Assembly: GCF_031598375.1 (NCBI RefSeq) | Contig: NZ_CP123872.1 | Location: forward strand, 3,034,501-3,098,500 | Direction of reading: 5' to 3' | DNA: 64,000 bases | Source of the DNA: Temperatibacter marinus | GTDB taxonomy: Bacteria > Pseudomonadota > Alphaproteobacteria > Sphingomonadales > Kordiimonadaceae | Shown: positions 11,388 through 18,723 of the stretch, in pieces | Position numbering within the stretch: position 1 is the first letter of the stretch | How the letters are laid out: each line of letters opens with the position of its first letter | Position numbers and translations under genes: made by a program | Notes under the pieces: generated by a model | What the model was told of the DNA's origin: nothing | The model's database searches: none | What the model saw: only the letters and a program-made list of their open reading frames with translations

Positions 11388-12221
11388 TTATAACTCTTCA
11401 TCTAGTGCAGCTGCACGTTTCTTTTCGCTCATGGCTATCAATAAGATGGATAGCTCATATAAAATAAGAAGCGGGATGCCAAGCCCTATTTGGCTGGCAG
11501 GATCTGGCGGCGTCAAAAAAGCAGCCATCGCAAAGATACCAACAATTGTATAGCGGCGCTTTTCCCGGAGTCCCTTGGCTGTAACTATCCCTACTCTTCC
11601 CATCAACGTCAAGAGAACGGGAAGGAGAAAAGCAAACCCAAACGCAAAAATTAATTTCATTGCAATGGACAAATATTCACTGATCTTGGCTTCAATCTCA
11701 ATGCTAATTCCGTCAATGGACCCACCAGTGTCGTAACTGAGCAAAAATTCCCAGGCGAATGGCATCACATAATAATAAGCGAGCGCTGCACCGCCAAAAA
11801 ATAAAAGCGGTGTCACCAACAAGAAAGGAAGAAAAGCACGCTTTTCATGACTGTATAAGCCAGGCGCAATAAACTTCCATACCTGGATTAGCATGAAAGG
11901 AAAGGAAAGAATAAACGCAGCATACATGCCAAGCTTTACTTGGGTCAGGAAAGCTTCCTGAGGGGCTGTAAAGATCATCCGCGCATTATCTTTGCCAAGT
12001 TCTCTCATTTTTGAAAAATAAGGGTCGGCTAGGAAAGCAAAAATATGCTCATAGAAATAAACACCGACGATGAACATTAAAACGAAACCAACAATCACCC
12101 AGAGCAGGCGTTTTCTAAGTTCAACGAGATGGTCTAGAATAGGCGCTTTACTCTCTGCAAGTTCATCATCAAACTGATCTGAGTTATCAATCAGGTCTGG
12201 CTGTTTGTCAGAATCAGTCAT
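11388..12221 (-). CDS. tatC: Sec-independent translocase TatC
   Basis: Multi-spanning inner-membrane receptor for twin-arginine signal peptides. It shows [11 protein letters not shown] at the N-terminus, the conserved [17 protein letters not shown] periplasmic loop, [21 protein letters not shown], and six hydrophobic segments. An acidic N-terminal extension of about 25 residues precedes the first motif. The start overlaps the end of tatB by 8 bp, indicating coupled translation. Confidence 0.97.
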
Positions 12222-12600
12222 TGCCCGATCCTTTTGTATCTTCCTTACTTACAGTCTCATCAATTTCAGAGGACAAGTCAGGCTGACTCTCACCAGCAGC
12301 AAACTGATCTGCCGCTTCATCAGCTGTCTCTTTATTCCCCATGATGTGGGCCGTAATATCTTCTGGACTCATATTAGGCGTAATACCCTCAGCATCCCGC
12401 TCTTCGCGAAACGGATCAGTTTCACGATCAACTTCATCTGCTAATTCATTCATTGTTGACTTAAACTCGCCTGCCAGACCACGAATTTTCCCAATAAACT
12501 GAGAGACTGAACGCATCAACTTAGGCAAATCTTTTGGACCGACGACCAAGAGGGCCACGATTGCAAGAATTACCATTTCAATTGTACCGATATCAAACAT
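12214..12600 (-). CDS. tatB: Sec-independent translocase subunit TatB
   Basis: Single-span membrane partner of TatC. The start [26 protein letters not shown] is typical: a helix followed by the hinge VGPKDLP, then an amphipathic helix ([20 protein letters not shown]) and a variable acidic tail. AAGG lies 7 nt before the ATG at 12600, which is better than the preceding TTG. Order tatA-tatB-tatC in one operon. Confidence 0.94.
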
Positions 12601-12640
12601 CAAGAAGCCTTACCCAAAAAGGGTAGAAGGGCAAAAGTCT

Positions 12641-12868
12641 TTACTCAGACTTTTCCTTCTCTTTCGCAGTTGTTTCTACAACAGGAGCGTCAGATTGATC
12701 ATCAACTTGCTTTGGAGTTTCATTCACAGTCTCAGACCCTTCTTTCATCCCCTTGCGAAAGCTAGTGATCCCTCGGGCTACTTCACCCATAAGTCCTGCA
12801 ATTTTACCGCGGCCAAATAATAAAATGACTAATACTGCAATAATAACGATTTGCCATGTCCCAAGCAT
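12641..12868 (-). CDS. tatA: Sec-independent translocase subunit TatA
   Basis: Pore-forming Tat subunit. It begins MLGTWQIVIIAVLVILLFGRGKI, with the characteristic FGRGKI hinge after one hydrophobic helix, then the amphipathic helix GLMGEVARGITSFRKGMKEG and an acidic tail; 75 residues in all. AAGGA is 7 nt upstream of the ATG at 12868. An upstream in-frame start (12898) would sit within scpB and lacks this site. scpB ends inside the leader, so the genes are co-transcribed. Confidence 0.95.
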   Translation of the reverse strand: MLGTWQIVIIAVLVILLFGRGKIAGLMGEVARGITSFRKGMKEGSETVNETPKQVDDQSDAPVVETTAKEKEKSE

Positions 12869-12884
12869 AGTCGTGTCCTTTTCT

Positions 12885-13646
12885 TTATTCTTCTTCAATC
12901 AGCAATTCAGGCTGATGCTCATCTTCTAGTTCACTCTCAGTCACATTGCTCTGAGAAACTTTATCCACTTGGGCGATAGCATCTTCCAAATCAATCTGAA
13001 GATCATCATCTTCAATTGTGTTCTGTGCTCTACCACCAATTTTGTCAAGCGCTTCGTCTACACTATCCAATAGGCCTGCGGCTTTCAATTCTTGTAGTCC
13101 AGGTAAGTCTTTAATATTTTCAAGTCCAAAATGGACCAAAAAATCTTCACTCGTACCATAAGTCACAGGTCTACCTGGTGTTCTTTTGCGCCCCATTGGA
13201 CGGATCCAGGTGGCTTCCATTAAGACATCAAGTGTCCCTTTAGATATAGAGACGCCGCGAATTTCTTCAATCTCTGAACGAGTAACAGGTTGATGATATG
13301 CGATAATCGCTAAAGTCTCTACCGCAGCACGAGAGAGTTTTCGAGGTTCATCAACTTCCCTTCTCAAGAGAAATGATAAATCACTTGAGGTCCTAAACAT
13401 ATATTTATTCGCTACACAGACTAAGGTTACTCCCCGTGTGTCATACTCTTCCATCAAAGCCTCAAGATGAACAGCCACTTCAGCCCCGAAGGGCAAGCGC
13501 TCTGCAATGTCATCAATGGACAATGCTTTTTCACTGGCAAATAGAACGGCCTCGACCATTCGCTTATGTGCAATATGCGTTTCGGTTGCCATCTCTTCAT
13601 CGCTTTTAAGCGGTAAGCTTTCAATTATTTCTGGCTCTTCTGTCAT
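12885..13646 (-). CDS. scpB: Segregation and condensation protein B
   Basis: Winged-helix subunit that bridges ScpA and SMC in the chromosome condensation complex. Family landmarks are MVEAVLFASEKALSIDDIAE, the long SRAAVETLAIIAYHQPVTRSEIEEIRG stretch (seen as LSRAAVETLAIIAYHQPVTR), GRPVTYGTSEDFLVHFGL, and KDLPGLQELKAAGLL. An acidic N-terminal lead of about 28 residues and an acidic tail of about 50 are extra. It follows scpA by 24 bp. Confidence 0.95.
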   Translation of the reverse strand: MTEEPEIIESLPLKSDEEMATETHIAHKRMVEAVLFASEKALSIDDIAERLPFGAEVAVHLEALMEEYDTRGVTLVCVANKYMFRTSSDLSFLLRREVDEPRKLSRAAVETLAIIAYHQPVTRSEIEEIRGVSISKGTLDVLMEATWIRPMGRKRTPGRPVTYGTSEDFLVHFGLENIKDLPGLQELKAAGLLDSVDEALDKIGGRAQNTIEDDDLQIDLEDAIAQVDKVSQSNVTESELEDEHQPELLIEEE

Positions 13647-13670: not shown

Positions 13671-14465
13671 TCAGTCTGTAGTTTCAGCAGATTTTTGCCT
13701 TAAATACAAGGGACCAAAAGTTTCAGCCTGTTGAATTTCTGCCTTGCCTAATTTTGCAAGCTCTAAGGTTGCAGCAAACATACTGGCCAAAGCCGACCGA
13801 CGCACACGTTTATCACTGAGACCTGCAGGCAAGAAATGAGCGAGTTGAGTCCAGCTAAATGTTTCACCAACCAATTCACTGAGCCGTTCTAGCGCTTCTT
13901 CAAGTGGATAGACTGGCCTTTGTTCTATCTTGATCTCAGAGATAGACGTGCGTTGACGGGTTTCTCCGTAATGTTTCAATAACTCATAGAGTGTGAGATC
14001 AAATTGCCCCCGCTTTGTCGTCTTCAAGCCTTCTGGCATGCCCCGCACAAAAGTGTCCCGTCCTTGAAGGTCTCGCCCCATCAACCGGGCGCCACTCTCG
14101 CGCATGGCTTCTAAACGCTGCAGTCGAAGCTGAAGTCTTAAAGCCATTTCTTCTGCACTAGGTTCGTCCCCAATTTCTTCCTTAGGGAGAAGCAGTCGAG
14201 ACTTAAGATAGGCAAGCCATGCTGCCATCACTAAATAATCTGCCGCCAGTTCCAGTTTAATTCGTTTCGCTGCTTGAACAAAGGCTAAATATTGCTCAAC
14301 AAGCTCCAGAATAGAAATTTCGAGAAGGTCCACTTTCTGTGCACGGGCTAGAGTAAGTAAAACATCAAGAGGTCCTTCAAAGGCTTCCATTTGAAGGACC
14401 AATTTGTCTGCGTCAAGGTCTGAAGTCTTGGTCTCAATAGGGATATGAAGCTCTGTTTCGGTCAT
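13671..14465 (-). CDS. scpA: Segregation and condensation protein A
   Basis: Kleisin subunit of the SMC-ScpAB complex. It shows FEGPLDVLLTLARAQKVDLLEISILELVEQYLAFV in part as MEAFEGPLDVLLTLARAQKV, then AADYLVMAAWLAYLKSRLLLP, both strong ScpA signatures. The C-terminal winged helix follows (RVRRSALASMFAATLELAKLG). Its ATG immediately follows the stop codon of the upstream membrane protein, indicating translational coupling. Length 264 is normal. Confidence 0.96.
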   Translation of the reverse strand: MTETELHIPIETKTSDLDADKLVLQMEAFEGPLDVLLTLARAQKVDLLEISILELVEQYLAFVQAAKRIKLELAADYLVMAAWLAYLKSRLLLPKEEIGDEPSAEEMALRLQLRLQRLEAMRESGARLMGRDLQGRDTFVRGMPEGLKTTKRGQFDLTLYELLKHYGETRQRTSISEIKIEQRPVYPLEEALERLSELVGETFSWTQLAHFLPAGLSDKRVRRSALASMFAATLELAKLGKAEIQQAETFGPLYLRQKSAETTD

Positions 14466-15107
14466 TTATGCCCCTAGCAGTGTCAAGAGTGCAATATAGA
14501 TACTAATGGCAGGCACAAAGATGATTTCCTTAAAAAATAAAATGACTGCAAGGAAAATAAAGAACCCATAGGGTGCCACAGAAAAATAACTTTCTGCGTG
14601 TTTCGGAGGTAAAAATTGTGCAATGAATAAAGCCCCATCATTTGGCGGAATTGGCAACATTTTTAAAACCGCAAAAACACAACAAATCAACATACCATTT
14701 TTTAGATTTTCAAAGAGCCATCCCTGCCCTCCAGTCATAGGCAATGTCCATTTCAAAAGGATTCCCATAATAAGAGCCAGCATGAGAAGTGCTAAAAATC
14801 CACATAACGCATAGATTTTCATAGCTTGAGGGTGTCGGAAATTCCCTGGGTTAACGTTCAACGCTTTAGGCCAGCCTAAAAGAATAGGAAATTGCATCAC
14901 AACTGAAAGCAATGGCATGAGGACAGTTCCAAAAGGATCAACGTGCCTCAGGGGGTCAGCGCTCAAGCGCCCCTCTAATCGCGGGGTTACATCACCCATA
15001 CGATCTGCGACATAGGCCTGAACGATCACGGGCACTGTAATGGCGAATAAAAACGGTAAAGCCATTGTCGTGATCATATTGATCATGGTTGCGACTGAAG
15101 CATCCAT
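14466..15107 (-). CDS. M50/site-2-protease-like membrane protein, active site lost
   Basis: Several hydrophobic helices and the family pattern AYVADRMGD...GRLSADPLRHVDPFGTVLMPL identify the S2P/M50 fold. LGWPKALNVNPGNFR and LPIPPNDGAL (Asp157, normally the third zinc ligand) also match. However, the segment that normally reads HExxH in helix 1 is PVIVQ at residues 26-30, so both zinc-binding His and the catalytic Glu are absent. It should not act as a zinc protease. It lies between nagZ and scpA, with 3 bp to nagZ and direct abutment to scpA, the position where this family is often found. The frame is intact, so it is not a decayed gene. Confidence 0.8.
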   Translation of the reverse strand: MDASVATMINMITTMALPFLFAITVPVIVQAYVADRMGDVTPRLEGRLSADPLRHVDPFGTVLMPLLSVVMQFPILLGWPKALNVNPGNFRHPQAMKIYALCGFLALLMLALIMGILLKWTLPMTGGQGWLFENLKNGMLICCVFAVLKMLPIPPNDGALFIAQFLPPKHAESYFSVAPYGFFIFLAVILFFKEIIFVPAISIYIALLTLLGA

Positions 15108-15110
15108 CGA

Positions 15111-16139
15111 TTAATCATCCTTCAATTGAAAAGAATTGAGCAGCAGATCATATTCATCTTCCAATGCAGCTCTATCATAGGTTTGCGGTTCAAGAACCGC
15201 TTTCAAAATATGAGTTACCTTTGCTTCGAGTTGATCGCTGCGATGATCATCAATGACAGGACTGATTTCTGCCATTTCTTTGAAATCTCCACCGCAGTGA
15301 AGCACAAGGTCACACCCAGCCTTCAAGCTTTTCTCTGCGCGAGACTTCATGCTGCCACTTAGGGCATGCATCCCAATATCATCACTCATAAGAAGTCCTG
15401 AATAGCCAATCAGCATTCGAATGACACGGCCCACAACAATACTAGAAAAGGTTGCTGGATTTTCAGAATCAACATCGCTGTATGTAATATGTGCTGTCAT
15501 AGCAAGCGGTGCATCAGACAAGAGTTTAAACGGCTTAAAGTCGGTTTCCTTGAGCTTTTTCAATTTTGTATCAACTACAGGTAACCCTTTATGACTATCC
15601 ACTGTAGCCCTGCCGTGTCCTGGGATATGCTTGATGACAGGTAAAACCCCTGTTTCCATATGACTATCGATAACAATCCGTCCCAGAGCCCCGACAAGAT
15701 CTGGGTCGGTCGCAAGAGCCCTATCCCCAATTATTGCATCGCCCCCTTTAACAGGAACATCCAAGAGGGGTAAACAATTCACATTGATGCCCAAAGCTCT
15801 CAAATCACTGGCAAGCATTCTTGAATGCAGTCGCAACAGTCGACTGGCCTTTCCTGCGTTTTGATCCAAGAGTTTATCAAAACTATCCATAGGGATATAT
15901 TGACGCCAATGAGGTGGTCTGAGGCGCTGAACACGCCCGCCTTCCTGATCAATCAAGATAAGAGGTTCATACCCTACACACTCACGTAAACTGTCCGTTA
16001 GGGCTTGAACTTGGGTTGGCGTCTCTACATTCCGGGCAAATAGAATGAACCCTGCTGGACGAAGGTCAGCAAAAAGAGCGCGCTCTTCAGCGGTCAAGAC
16101 AAGTCCTTCAAATCCAAAAATCACCGGCGAAAGCGCCAT
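15111..16139 (-). CDS. nagZ: Beta-N-acetylhexosaminidase NagZ
   Basis: Cytoplasmic glycoside hydrolase family 3 enzyme that removes N-acetylglucosamine from muropeptides during peptidoglycan recycling. Landmarks are ILIDQEGGRVQRLRPP, KHIPGHG (170-176) followed by DSH (181-183) with the catalytic His, and LLMSDDIGMHAL carrying the nucleophile Asp. Single-domain length of 342 is normal. It follows the SPOR-domain gene by 29 bp, the usual alphaproteobacterial order. Confidence 0.96.
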   Translation of the reverse strand: MALSPVIFGFEGLVLTAEERALFADLRPAGFILFARNVETPTQVQALTDSLRECVGYEPLILIDQEGGRVQRLRPPHWRQYIPMDSFDKLLDQNAGKASRLLRLHSRMLASDLRALGINVNCLPLLDVPVKGGDAIIGDRALATDPDLVGALGRIVIDSHMETGVLPVIKHIPGHGRATVDSHKGLPVVDTKLKKLKETDFKPFKLLSDAPLAMTAHITYSDVDSENPATFSSIVVGRVIRMLIGYSGLLMSDDIGMHALSGSMKSRAEKSLKAGCDLVLHCGGDFKEMAEISPVIDDHRSDQLEAKVTHILKAVLEPQTYDRAALEDEYDLLLNSFQLKDD

Positions 16140-16168: not shown

Positions 16169-16993
16169 TTATTTTTTAGATGGTGACACCACAAAGCATG
16201 GCTGTCCGCGTGTTTTGAAATATAAACATAAATTATCTGCGGCCATCCGGTTATCAAGTGGTCCAACCGTTAATCGATAGTAAGTTGTTCCCCCGACTAC
16301 AGCCGTTGTAATATAATCTTTCATATCACCTGTCTGCTGACTATGATCTCGTCGTACGGATCGCCATGCAGATTTTGCTGTATTTTCCGTTAAAAAAGAC
16401 CCTAATTGGACCCGATAAAAATCATAGCCTGCGACCGCCTTACCTGGGGTAGCCTTTGGTTGAGAGGCCTTACTTACTGTCGGTTTCGCTGGTTTTTGAC
16501 TAACAGGCTTTGGAGCTGGGGTTTCTGTCTTAGCTCTTTCTTTGGAATTATCTTCAGGTTTCTTTTCTACGCTAGAACGATTATCAACAGGAGTTTCCTC
16601 AACTTGATTTTTCGGCATTTCTTTAACCGGCTCTTCAGGCTGTTTACTAATATCCACCACGGCTGATTGCTCATCGCGGCCCTGCATTTTATCAAAAACC
16701 TTTTTGTCCTGATCCGGTATATTTTTACCGCCGGCATCCAAAGGGCGCTCTTTTACAGGCCCAGGGTCTGCTTTAACATGCTTCACAGGGCCATCACTGC
16801 CCACATAACTATTATAGAGATATACGAGACCAAAAACTGATAGAACAACAAATGCTGTAGCACCCAGAGCAATCCACTTTGTATAAGATGCAATACCTTG
16901 ATTTCCTGCCCCTGCGTCTTCTTCAGAGACAGGCATCAGCCAGGGCGGTGTATCACGTGGATCTAAGTCAGCTTTATTGTCTTCTTCAGTCAT
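16169..16993 (-). CDS. SPOR-domain membrane protein
   Basis: Likely divisome-associated protein that binds denuded peptidoglycan. Residues 1-33 are acidic and cytoplasmic. A single membrane helix follows (about 36-57, IALGATAFVVLSVFGLVYLY). A long Pro/Lys/Glu-rich low-complexity linker runs from about 60 to 185, and a C-terminal SPOR domain from about 195 to 272 (YRVQLGSFLTENTAKSAW, then TYYRLTVGPLDNRMAADNLC). The ATG overlaps the argS stop as TGATG and has AGGA 6 nt upstream; a GTG one codon earlier is possible. Confidence 0.88.
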   Translation of the reverse strand: MTEEDNKADLDPRDTPPWLMPVSEEDAGAGNQGIASYTKWIALGATAFVVLSVFGLVYLYNSYVGSDGPVKHVKADPGPVKERPLDAGGKNIPDQDKKVFDKMQGRDEQSAVVDISKQPEEPVKEMPKNQVEETPVDNRSSVEKKPEDNSKERAKTETPAPKPVSQKPAKPTVSKASQPKATPGKAVAGYDFYRVQLGSFLTENTAKSAWRSVRRDHSQQTGDMKDYITTAVVGGTTYYRLTVGPLDNRMAADNLCLYFKTRGQPCFVVSPSKK

Positions 16994-18723
16994 CACATTT
17001 CCTCTACAGGTGTCACCCCTAATACATAAAGGCCACTCGCTATAACAGTCGCAACAGACCGCGCTAAAGCCATTCTAGACAGCGTTTTCTCTTTATCTGC
17101 CTCCAGGACCAACCGCAGTTCAGGGTTACTATTCCCAAGATTATAGTAACTATGAAAGCTAGATGCTAGATCATAGAGATAAAAAGCAATTCTATGGGGC
17201 TCATGAGCCGTAGCGGCGCTTTCAACCATTCTCGGCCAGGCAGCCATTTGTTTCATCAAGCCGATTTCAGCCTCATGCGTCAGAGAGCCCACATCAGCAC
17301 CCGCCAAATCAAGATCACCATGCGACGCAACGGCTTTCTTCTGCAACGAATTCACTCTTGCGTGAGCATATTGAACATAAAAAACAGGATTGTCTTTTGA
17401 TTGCTCTAGGACTTTAGCATAATCAAAATCTAGCGGCGCATCATTTTTACGCGTCAGCATAATGAAGCGCGTTACATCTTTTCCAACTTCATCAACAACT
17501 TCACGCAGGGTTATGAATGTTCCAGCACGTTTGGACATTTTAACTGGCTCACCGTCCCGAAACAATTTCACCAATTGGCAAAGGCGGACATCAAGAGAGC
17601 CATCATCGGCCATGGCATTGATCGCTGCTTCCATTCGCTTAATGTACCCGCCGTGATCCGCGCCCCAGACATTGATCATCTTCTTAAAGCCACGAATATA
17701 TTTATCGTAGTGATAAGCGATATCCGCTGCGAAATAGGTATAGTCTCCATTTGACTTTTGGATAGGGCGGTCAACATCATCCCCAAACTGCTCAGCTTTA
17801 AAAAGTGTTTGCTCTCTTGCTTCCCAGTCTTCCGGTTTTTTCCCTTTTGGGGGCTCAAGAACCCCTTCATAAATATAACCACGCTCACGCAGAACAGCAA
17901 TTGCATCTGCTATCCGACCACTCGAATGCAAAGTTTTTTCACTAAAAAAAACATCATGCTCAACACCGAGGGCCGCTAGGTCTGATCGAATTAAATCCAT
18001 CATCAGCTCTGTGCCCTCAAGCCGCATCACAGGCAGCCATTCTTCTTTTGAAGCCTTCATGAACCGATCGCCGTGGCGTTCCATTAATGTTTGAGCAGCT
18101 TCTTTTAGGTAAGCGCCAGGATATAACCCCTCTGGTATTTCAATGACTTCCCCGTGGGCTTCTCGGTATCTCAAATAGACAGATTCAGCAAGAATATCAA
18201 TCTGATTACCAGCATCGTTAATATAGTATTCTTTACTAACGTCAAATCCAGCCTTAGTGAGCAAATTGGCAAGTGCATCACCAAAAACAGCGCCTCTTAC
18301 ATGACCCACATGCATGGGCCCTGTTGGGTTGGCCGACACATATTCGACATTAACTTTTTCACCTGCTCCAGTTTCGCTATCTCCAAAGGATGTGCCATCT
18401 GCAATCACGTGACGAACAATTGCCTGCCAATATGAAGGCGACAAAGTCATATTAATGAACCCAGGGCCGGCGACATCAACAGCAGAAACAAAGGCCAAAG
18501 CTTCTAGTTTCTCAGCGAGCAACCCTGCAATATCACGTGGCTTCATGCGTGCCTGTTTTGACAAAACTAAAGCCGCATTGAGTGCAATATCACCGTGACT
18601 ACTGTCACGAGGGGGCTCAATGGCTACATTTTTTGTATCCAGATCAGCGGGCAGCGCTCCCTCGGCGCCAAGATCAGCAAGCACAGCATTCAACTGTTCG
18701 CGAATGTTGGTATAAATATTCAT
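16993..18723 (-). CDS. argS: Arginine--tRNA ligase
   Basis: Class I synthetase of 576 residues. It shows the HIGH-type sequence [18 protein letters not shown], the KMSK-type loop [14 protein letters not shown], and the C-terminal DALR anticodon-binding domain ending in [19 protein letters not shown]. The SPOR gene downstream is translationally coupled by a TGATG overlap. It lies 60 bp after dgt on the same strand. Confidence 0.97.

Follow-up and report, generated by a model that had tools for sequence, protein, structure and literature searches.

What becomes of a membrane protease homologue once its catalytic motif is gone is the question raised by a gene lodged between nagZ and scpA in the 64,000-nucleotide stretch of DNA analysed here (the window). 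A preliminary description read its product as an M50/site-2-protease (S2P) homologue that had lost the zinc motif HExxH and was kept in a conserved operon. Our analysis agrees. The gene lies between nagZ and scpA in all 28 members of the family Kordiimonadaceae in which it was found. The reading frame has the coordinates that the description gave it, lies on the minus strand, and is open over its full length (Table 1). Its stop codon directly adjoins the start of scpA, and the gap to the end of nagZ is 3 bases wide, so the tight packing noted earlier holds good. Its codon usage is that of a normal gene, scoring above 31 of the 46 other mechanically picked ORFs of the window, and none of 500 synonymous recodings scored as high.

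All genes of the neighbourhood, in the order argS-SPOR-nagZ-[M50]-scpA-scpB-tatA-tatB-tatC, lie on one strand; the names argS, tatA, tatB, and tatC at its two ends are presumed, by recognition. The two loci in which argS is missing from the order are both on short contigs. The neighbourhood is as conserved around orthologues that keep HExxH as around the inactive ones, and the neighbours therefore say nothing specific about the inactive form. The earlier tie to cell-wall recycling and chromosome segregation had position as its sole basis and is not upheld.

Table 1. Features of the nagZ-scpA locus, in positions of the window
Feature	Position	Strand	Basis or remark
tatA, tatB, tatC	11388..12898	-	Names presumed, by recognition; syntenic
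scpB	12885..13646	-	Pfam
scpA, downstream gene	13671..14465	-	Pfam
S2P/M50-like ORF (putative pseudoprotease), 213 aa	14466..15107	-	ATG start
LPIPPNDG, residues 151-158; third zinc-ligand position Asp157 kept	14634..14657	-	Alignment
Lys149	14661..14663	-	Every readable distinct HExxH sequence (227 of 227) has Asn here
Residues 103-107, GPxxN position: Gly103 kept, Pro104 to Phe, Asn107 to Leu	14787..14801	-	Alignment
Codons 26-30, PVIVQ, position of zinc motif HExxH	15018..15032	-	Alignment with orthologues and solved S2Ps
nagZ, upstream operon gene	15111..16139	-	GH3 (Pfam); PRK05337 beta-N-acetylhexosaminidase
SPOR-domain protein	16169..16996	-	Pfam
argS	16993..18723	-	Name presumed, by recognition; gene order conserved in 50 of 52 loci

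The loss of the zinc motif is clear from two alignments. Residues 26-30, PVIVQ, stand opposite the HEAGH or HEAAH that same-site orthologues carry, and in an HMM alignment they fall on the HExxH of solved S2Ps (MJ0392 and RseP), which confirms the placement first proposed. The preliminary description had named an intact HExxH elsewhere in the protein as evidence against its reading; a search throughout the protein found none. The flanking family motifs, described as intact, are so for the most part, with the exceptions of N51D in GRLSADPL, L156N in LPIPPNDG, the loss of GPxxN, and Lys in place of Asn149. The Asn of GPxxN and the Asn that precedes LPxPPLDG are important in S2P enzymes. The window protein thus lacks both these residues (Leu107 and Lys149) as well as HExxH, and keeps the third ligand Asp of the (L)DG motif as Asp157-Gly158 within NDG.

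Kinship with the S2P family is nonetheless evident at several levels. The protein is homologous over its full length to the HEAGH orthologues of its family, with 31-45% identity, and a profile in which it is included recovers RseP, MjS2P, and SpoIVFB from the PDB (E 6e-5 to 0.014). AlphaFold2 models, which rest on alignments rich in HExxH homologues, reach a pLDDT of 91.8 (window protein) and 92.2 (a REALR protein). Compared by VIA-align 2, a tool that cautions that helical bundles may score up to a Z of about 13 by chance, the window model matched Escherichia coli RseP at Z 11.0 (167 residues, 3.6 A), MjS2P at 9.9 (154 residues, 3.8 A), and SpoIVFB at 8.3, the eight best rows all being S2Ps and the ninth falling to 5.2; the REALR model gave Aquifex RseP at Z 11.0, MjS2P at 9.3, SpoIVFB at 8.8, and the next other row at 6.0. 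Foldseek alone returned no match to the window model in the PDB at E<=0.001, its top row being MjS2P (E 0.13, probability 0.99). Taken together, the window protein is predicted to have the S2P core fold. Pfam holds no family that matches it at E<=1, and the only NCBIfam match is to an irrelevant model at E 0.09, attributable to chance, so standard annotation would miss the S2P kinship. Such pseudoproteases are nearly invisible to routine annotation in general: among the 12 RExxR or RExxK forms found at the nagZ-scpA site, 3 pass the Pfam M50 cut-off, 5 fall below it, and 4 have no match at E<=0.001.

We followed the motif through the family, the order, and the class. A genome search found the gene, always at the nagZ-scpA site, in 28 of 29 Kordiimonadaceae genomes, the sole miss being an assembly that is 76% complete (G027), and matched it in 55 of 59 relatives in total, the window's own genome included. 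The motif reads HEAGH in 15 of the 28, REALR in 7, REAGR in 2, REAAK in 2, REAAR in 1, and PVIVQ in the window; HExxH is therefore missing in 13 (12 RExxR or RExxK forms and the window). Each of the 28 genomes has a single match to the window protein, so no second minimal S2P of this kind is seen to take over. Of 128 genomes of the order, 98 matched at E<=1e-20 and the motif was read in each of them; outside the family HExxH was present in 69 of the 70 matched genomes (26/27 and 43/43). In the class sample, any match was found in 105 of 153 genomes, many of them weak and partial; all 74 strong-match loci that were read have HExxH, 44 of these with both nagZ and scpA near. About half of the genomes in that sample have no full-length orthologue, and many bacteria can therefore do without the gene. 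Patterns that leave out the motif found at least 80 named GTDB loci; among those listed, HExxH is present in 75 of 75 outside Kordiimonadaceae, and the five inside comprise three HEAGH and two without the motif. The samples overlap slightly, and removal of duplicates leaves 242 distinct sequences, 228 with HExxH (213 of them outside the family) and 14 without.

The one distinct sequence outside Kordiimonadaceae that lacks HExxH belongs to sister family f2, where six of seven loci have the motif. This orthologue (G029, locus L170) lies at the nagZ-scpA site, reads REAFR, has also lost GPxxN, Asn149, and His55, and has the longest branch of the gene tree (3.12). As to the neighbourhood, 32 of the 75 named loci listed outside Kordiimonadaceae have scpA no more than about 3 kb from the minimal S2P gene, which suggests that the link between the two is old.

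The remaining residues of the metal centre mostly follow the histidines. Both His ligands are gone in all 14 sequences without HExxH. The second-shell Asn107 is present in 228 of 228 distinct HExxH sequences versus 5 of the 14, and Asn149 in 227 of 227 readable HExxH sequences versus 2 of the 14; the metal centre thus appears to have been lost mostly as a unit. Asp157-Gly158 is kept in 14 of 14; in 13 of 14, Glu27 is retained and a basic residue sits at each of the two positions once held by His. The window protein is the only inactive form of the family without Glu27 and the basic residues of the motif, and it has Lys at 149. From these patterns we infer that a basic residue may replace zinc as the partner of Asp157 (Arg26 and Arg/Lys30 in the RExxR/K forms, Lys149 in the window protein).

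The inactive form is under selection in the RExxR pairs that could be measured. The closest RExxR pair, the REALR genes of G008 and G011, has a dN/dS of 0.021, comparable to the HEAGH pairs G003/G010 (0.076), G019/G026 (0.027), G016/G018 (0.032), and G019/G023 (0.023). The REAGR pair G017/G021 gives 0.239, near the value of the SPOR gene (0.261), itself only loosely conserved, and above that of nagZ (0.154). Both RExxR pairs with a usable dS are thus under purifying selection. For the remaining three inactive pairs, whose dS values are saturated, we give pN instead, for the gene versus nagZ: 0.097 versus 0.254 in G012/G015, 0.075 versus 0.185 in G002/G009, and 0.207 versus 0.206 in G020/G028. 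We regard it as very likely that a constrained pseudoprotease form exists in Kordiimonadaceae. Of the earlier proposal, the S2P homologue that lacks its zinc site, in a conserved operon, is supported; a scaffold role would be conjecture.

The scatter of the two forms was compared with the history of the neighbours, using a quick tree of five neighbour genes (52 rows), further trees without nagZ, also quick, and a tree of the M50-like gene built without the motif columns. The five-gene tree requires nine state changes in 52 rows, seven of them within the family, and the trees without nagZ require eight within the family; the gene's own tree requires four in 52 rows. In the latter, ten inactive forms (REALR, REAGR, and REAAR) group together (98/92), and the seven REALR sequences have a one-residue insertion in common. 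In the neighbour trees, G022 (REALR) pairs with G025 (HEAGH), with support of 100 with nagZ and 98 without it; G012 and G015 (REALR) fall among six HEAGH forms, making up with them a group of eight (support of 97-100 in concatenated neighbour trees); and, wherever argS is included, G024 (HEAGH) joins G008/G011 (REALR), with support of 96-97. With scpA, scpB, and tatC alone, the G022-G025 pairing is not resolved and that of G024 is absent. The data of the M50-like gene reject both G022 with G025 (p=0.011) and the group of eight (p=7e-107), and in whole-topology tests each tree is rejected on the other's data. Pairwise identities agree: in the M50-like protein G012 is 48% identical to G018 and 50% to G016, the corresponding values being 93% for both in scpA, and 95% and 93% in tatC; G022 and G025 are 44% identical in the M50-like protein, versus 94% in scpA and 82% in nagZ. 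At the nucleotide level the latter two are 47-60% identical across the M50-like gene and 71-82% in the 1.2 kb beyond. Because the gene tree conflicts with those of the neighbours, it seems that a HEAGH form can give way to a REALR form, or the reverse, at the nagZ-scpA site, either through transfer or because an old pair lost one of its members.

Two further cases were considered as evidence of exchange and set aside. The pairing of G012 and G015 with G018 (99 on the five-gene tree) vanishes without nagZ, and G016 and G018, which are 94% identical in the M50-like protein and 92% in scpA, are only 61% identical in nagZ, whose history seems odd. Indeed, nagZ varies oddly between close Kordiimonas species (loci L062 and L063, among others), which hints that it, too, has been replaced.

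The number of losses implied is smaller than the number of state changes. The tests reject neither one common origin for the family's 13 inactive forms (p=0.33) nor a grouping of the window's genome (G000) with G007 (p=0.07) or with G029 (p=0.057); they do reject placing G029 together with the 12 RExxR/K forms of the family (p=0.0018). The RExxR of G029 is accordingly of separate origin, and these tests point to one to three losses in Kordiimonadaceae and one in f2 rather than nine.

Because the zinc centre is lost while fold, place, and constraint are kept, the data fit a pseudoprotease. We think it somewhat more likely than not that the gene encodes a membrane pseudoprotease, with a minimal M50/S2P fold and a dismantled zinc centre, that has been kept for a job without peptide cleavage. 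A sequencing or assembly error is practically negligible as an explanation, as five successive codons differ in an open frame and 12 more genomes of the family lack the motif, three of the motif-less genomes being single-contig assemblies (G008, G009, and G020). The preliminary description held that HExxH in orthologues of close relatives would point to such an error or to an isolated loss; these orthologues do exist, but with 15 of 28 having the motif and 13 of 28 lacking it, the case is neither. Persisting peptidase activity of the RExxR and PVIVQ forms, by way of a different metal site or a different chemistry, would accord with the retention of Glu27 in 13 and of Asp157 in all of the 14 sequences, but it is very improbable given the absence of both His ligands from every one, the loss of Asn107 and Asn149 from most, and the lack of even Glu27 in the window protein. 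It is more conceivable, though still unlikely, that the window copy is a decaying remnant under relaxed constraint whose frame is merely unbroken so far. It has the longest end branch in Kordiimonadaceae (2.87 changes per column versus a median of 0.36, its branch in the neighbour genes being 0.48 versus 0.23), and it alone among the family's inactive forms has lost Glu27 and the basic motif residues. Against decay stand its full-length open frame, genome-typical codon usage, tight packing with scpA, a confident model of a complete fold, and the retention of 36 of the 43 columns conserved in both forms, versus a match to the majority in 45 of the 170 others (p=7e-12); the copy has therefore diverged fast but not at random. 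Of the family's copies it is the one most eroded, and as it lacks a close relative its constraint is judged indirectly, from shared columns and codon usage. On this basis, we consider the window's own copy quite likely to be functional.

Other alternatives bear on how the two forms came to be scattered. An ancestral pair of HEAGH and RExxR genes, of which each species lost one or the other, would make transfer between species needless; it competes with transfer and not with the pseudoprotease reading. Such a pair yields the same conflict between the gene tree and the neighbour-gene trees and agrees with the unrejected single origin of the 13 inactive forms, and the odd history of nagZ raises its weight. 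However, none of the 28 family genomes carries both forms, although seven or eight state changes are needed within the family, and we hold a pair to be a real but minority possibility. The forms might also alternate as a receptor for bacteriocins or phages, active-site loss and allele replacement being the means of escape. Two diverged forms are indeed scattered at one locus, and the S2P-family protein RseP is a bacteriocin receptor in enterococci, needed by enterocin K1 according to the portions consulted of PMC9672952; still, no diversifying signal was measured and the REALR pair G008/G011 is strongly conserved, which makes receptor escape improbable. Finally, compensation by another M50 protein was considered and set aside, since on inspection of a Pfam M50 scan of the 29 genomes no pattern that tracks the inactive form was seen. 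A protein of 370-393 aa, the size of RseP, occurs in 27 of the 29, and other M50-like frames of 379-816 aa are scattered among genomes with inactive forms (G000, G008, G011, G017, and G021) and with HEAGH (G001 and G025). One of these, in the window's own genome and apart from the RseP-size protein, is a 722-aa frame with a weak M50 match of 29.4 bits (G000:C1:203025-203306, locus L002); frames of 723 and 816 aa with similarly weak matches occur in G017 and G021.

Returning to the pseudoprotease, its status as such is well supported, and its mechanism is what we infer. As the inactive relatives that could be tested are still held by selection, the protein probably does something useful without cutting. 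The retained transmembrane cleft might still bind membrane-protein clients and hold them, stabilizing them, or the bound clients might be passed on to another protease or partner; YqgP with FtsH and EGY3 with chloroplast proteins would be the models for such handling. A client-binding or adaptor mechanism of this kind, argued from analogy, is the one that we favour, though at less than even odds. Basic residues at or near the old ligand positions could pair with the ever-present Asp157 and hold the core in place of zinc. More speculatively, and with rather less confidence, the nagZ-scpA site may be an exchangeable cassette in which a protease and its own pseudoprotease are alternative alleles. 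If so, the conserved task of the subfamily would be nonproteolytic in all members, and two arginines with the old ligand Asp would form a metal-free core reached at least twice.

Known systems offer partial parallels. Bacterial S2Ps of groups II and IV have no additional domains and are little characterized, according to the consulted portions of a review of bacterial S2Ps (PMC10202637), in which no inactive bacterial member was found. With S2Ps that lack extra domains the window protein shares full-length homology, the operon site, the predicted fold, and the LDG Asp; it differs in having no HExxH, a broken GPxxN, and a replaced Asn149. One counterpart is plant EGY3, described in the consulted portions of two papers (PMC9355673 and PMC10978774) as an S2P-family pseudoprotease that stabilizes other chloroplast proteins, and in the former as plant-only and the only pseudoenzyme homologous to the S2P family. 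EGY3 is likewise an S2P homologue without the zinc motif and, per the same portions, is highly conserved in plants; it differs in being, by that account, restricted to plants and in occurring beside EGY1 and EGY2, and PMC10978774, as far as consulted, cites evidence that these two are active. In Kordiimonadaceae, by contrast, the inactive form occupies the very bacterial locus that in other species carries the active one. The bacterial rhomboid YqgP acts as an FtsH adaptor independently of its own protease activity (PMC7231995, portions consulted). It and the rhomboid pseudoproteases (iRhoms and Derlins) resemble our case, as far as these sources go, in the proposed mode, an intramembrane protease fold that binds clients uncut. 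They differ in belonging to an unrelated serine protease family, and YqgP also keeps its own activity. The FtsHi pseudoproteases of Arabidopsis have HExxH replaced, in FtsHi4 by REAAV (consulted portions of PMC11266112), which is close to the RExxR type, though FtsHi proteins belong to the AAA protease family M41 and not to S2P. The main text of that review of metallopeptidase pseudoenzymes contains none of the terms M50, site-2, S2P, or EGY3. A literature search covering titles and the starts of abstracts found, among the matches listed, no bacterial S2P pseudoprotease and nothing on the nagZ-scpA operon position.

The pseudoprotease kind itself is thus known, from EGY3 and the rhomboids; what appears to be new is a bacterial S2P pseudoprotease. 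Rhomboid-type pseudoproteases showed that an intramembrane protease fold can act by client binding. With active and inactive forms at one bacterial locus, and with named isolates in the family, Kordiimonadaceae provide a natural experiment on the role of the S2P fold versus that of its zinc, in a subfamily that is often kept beside scpA.
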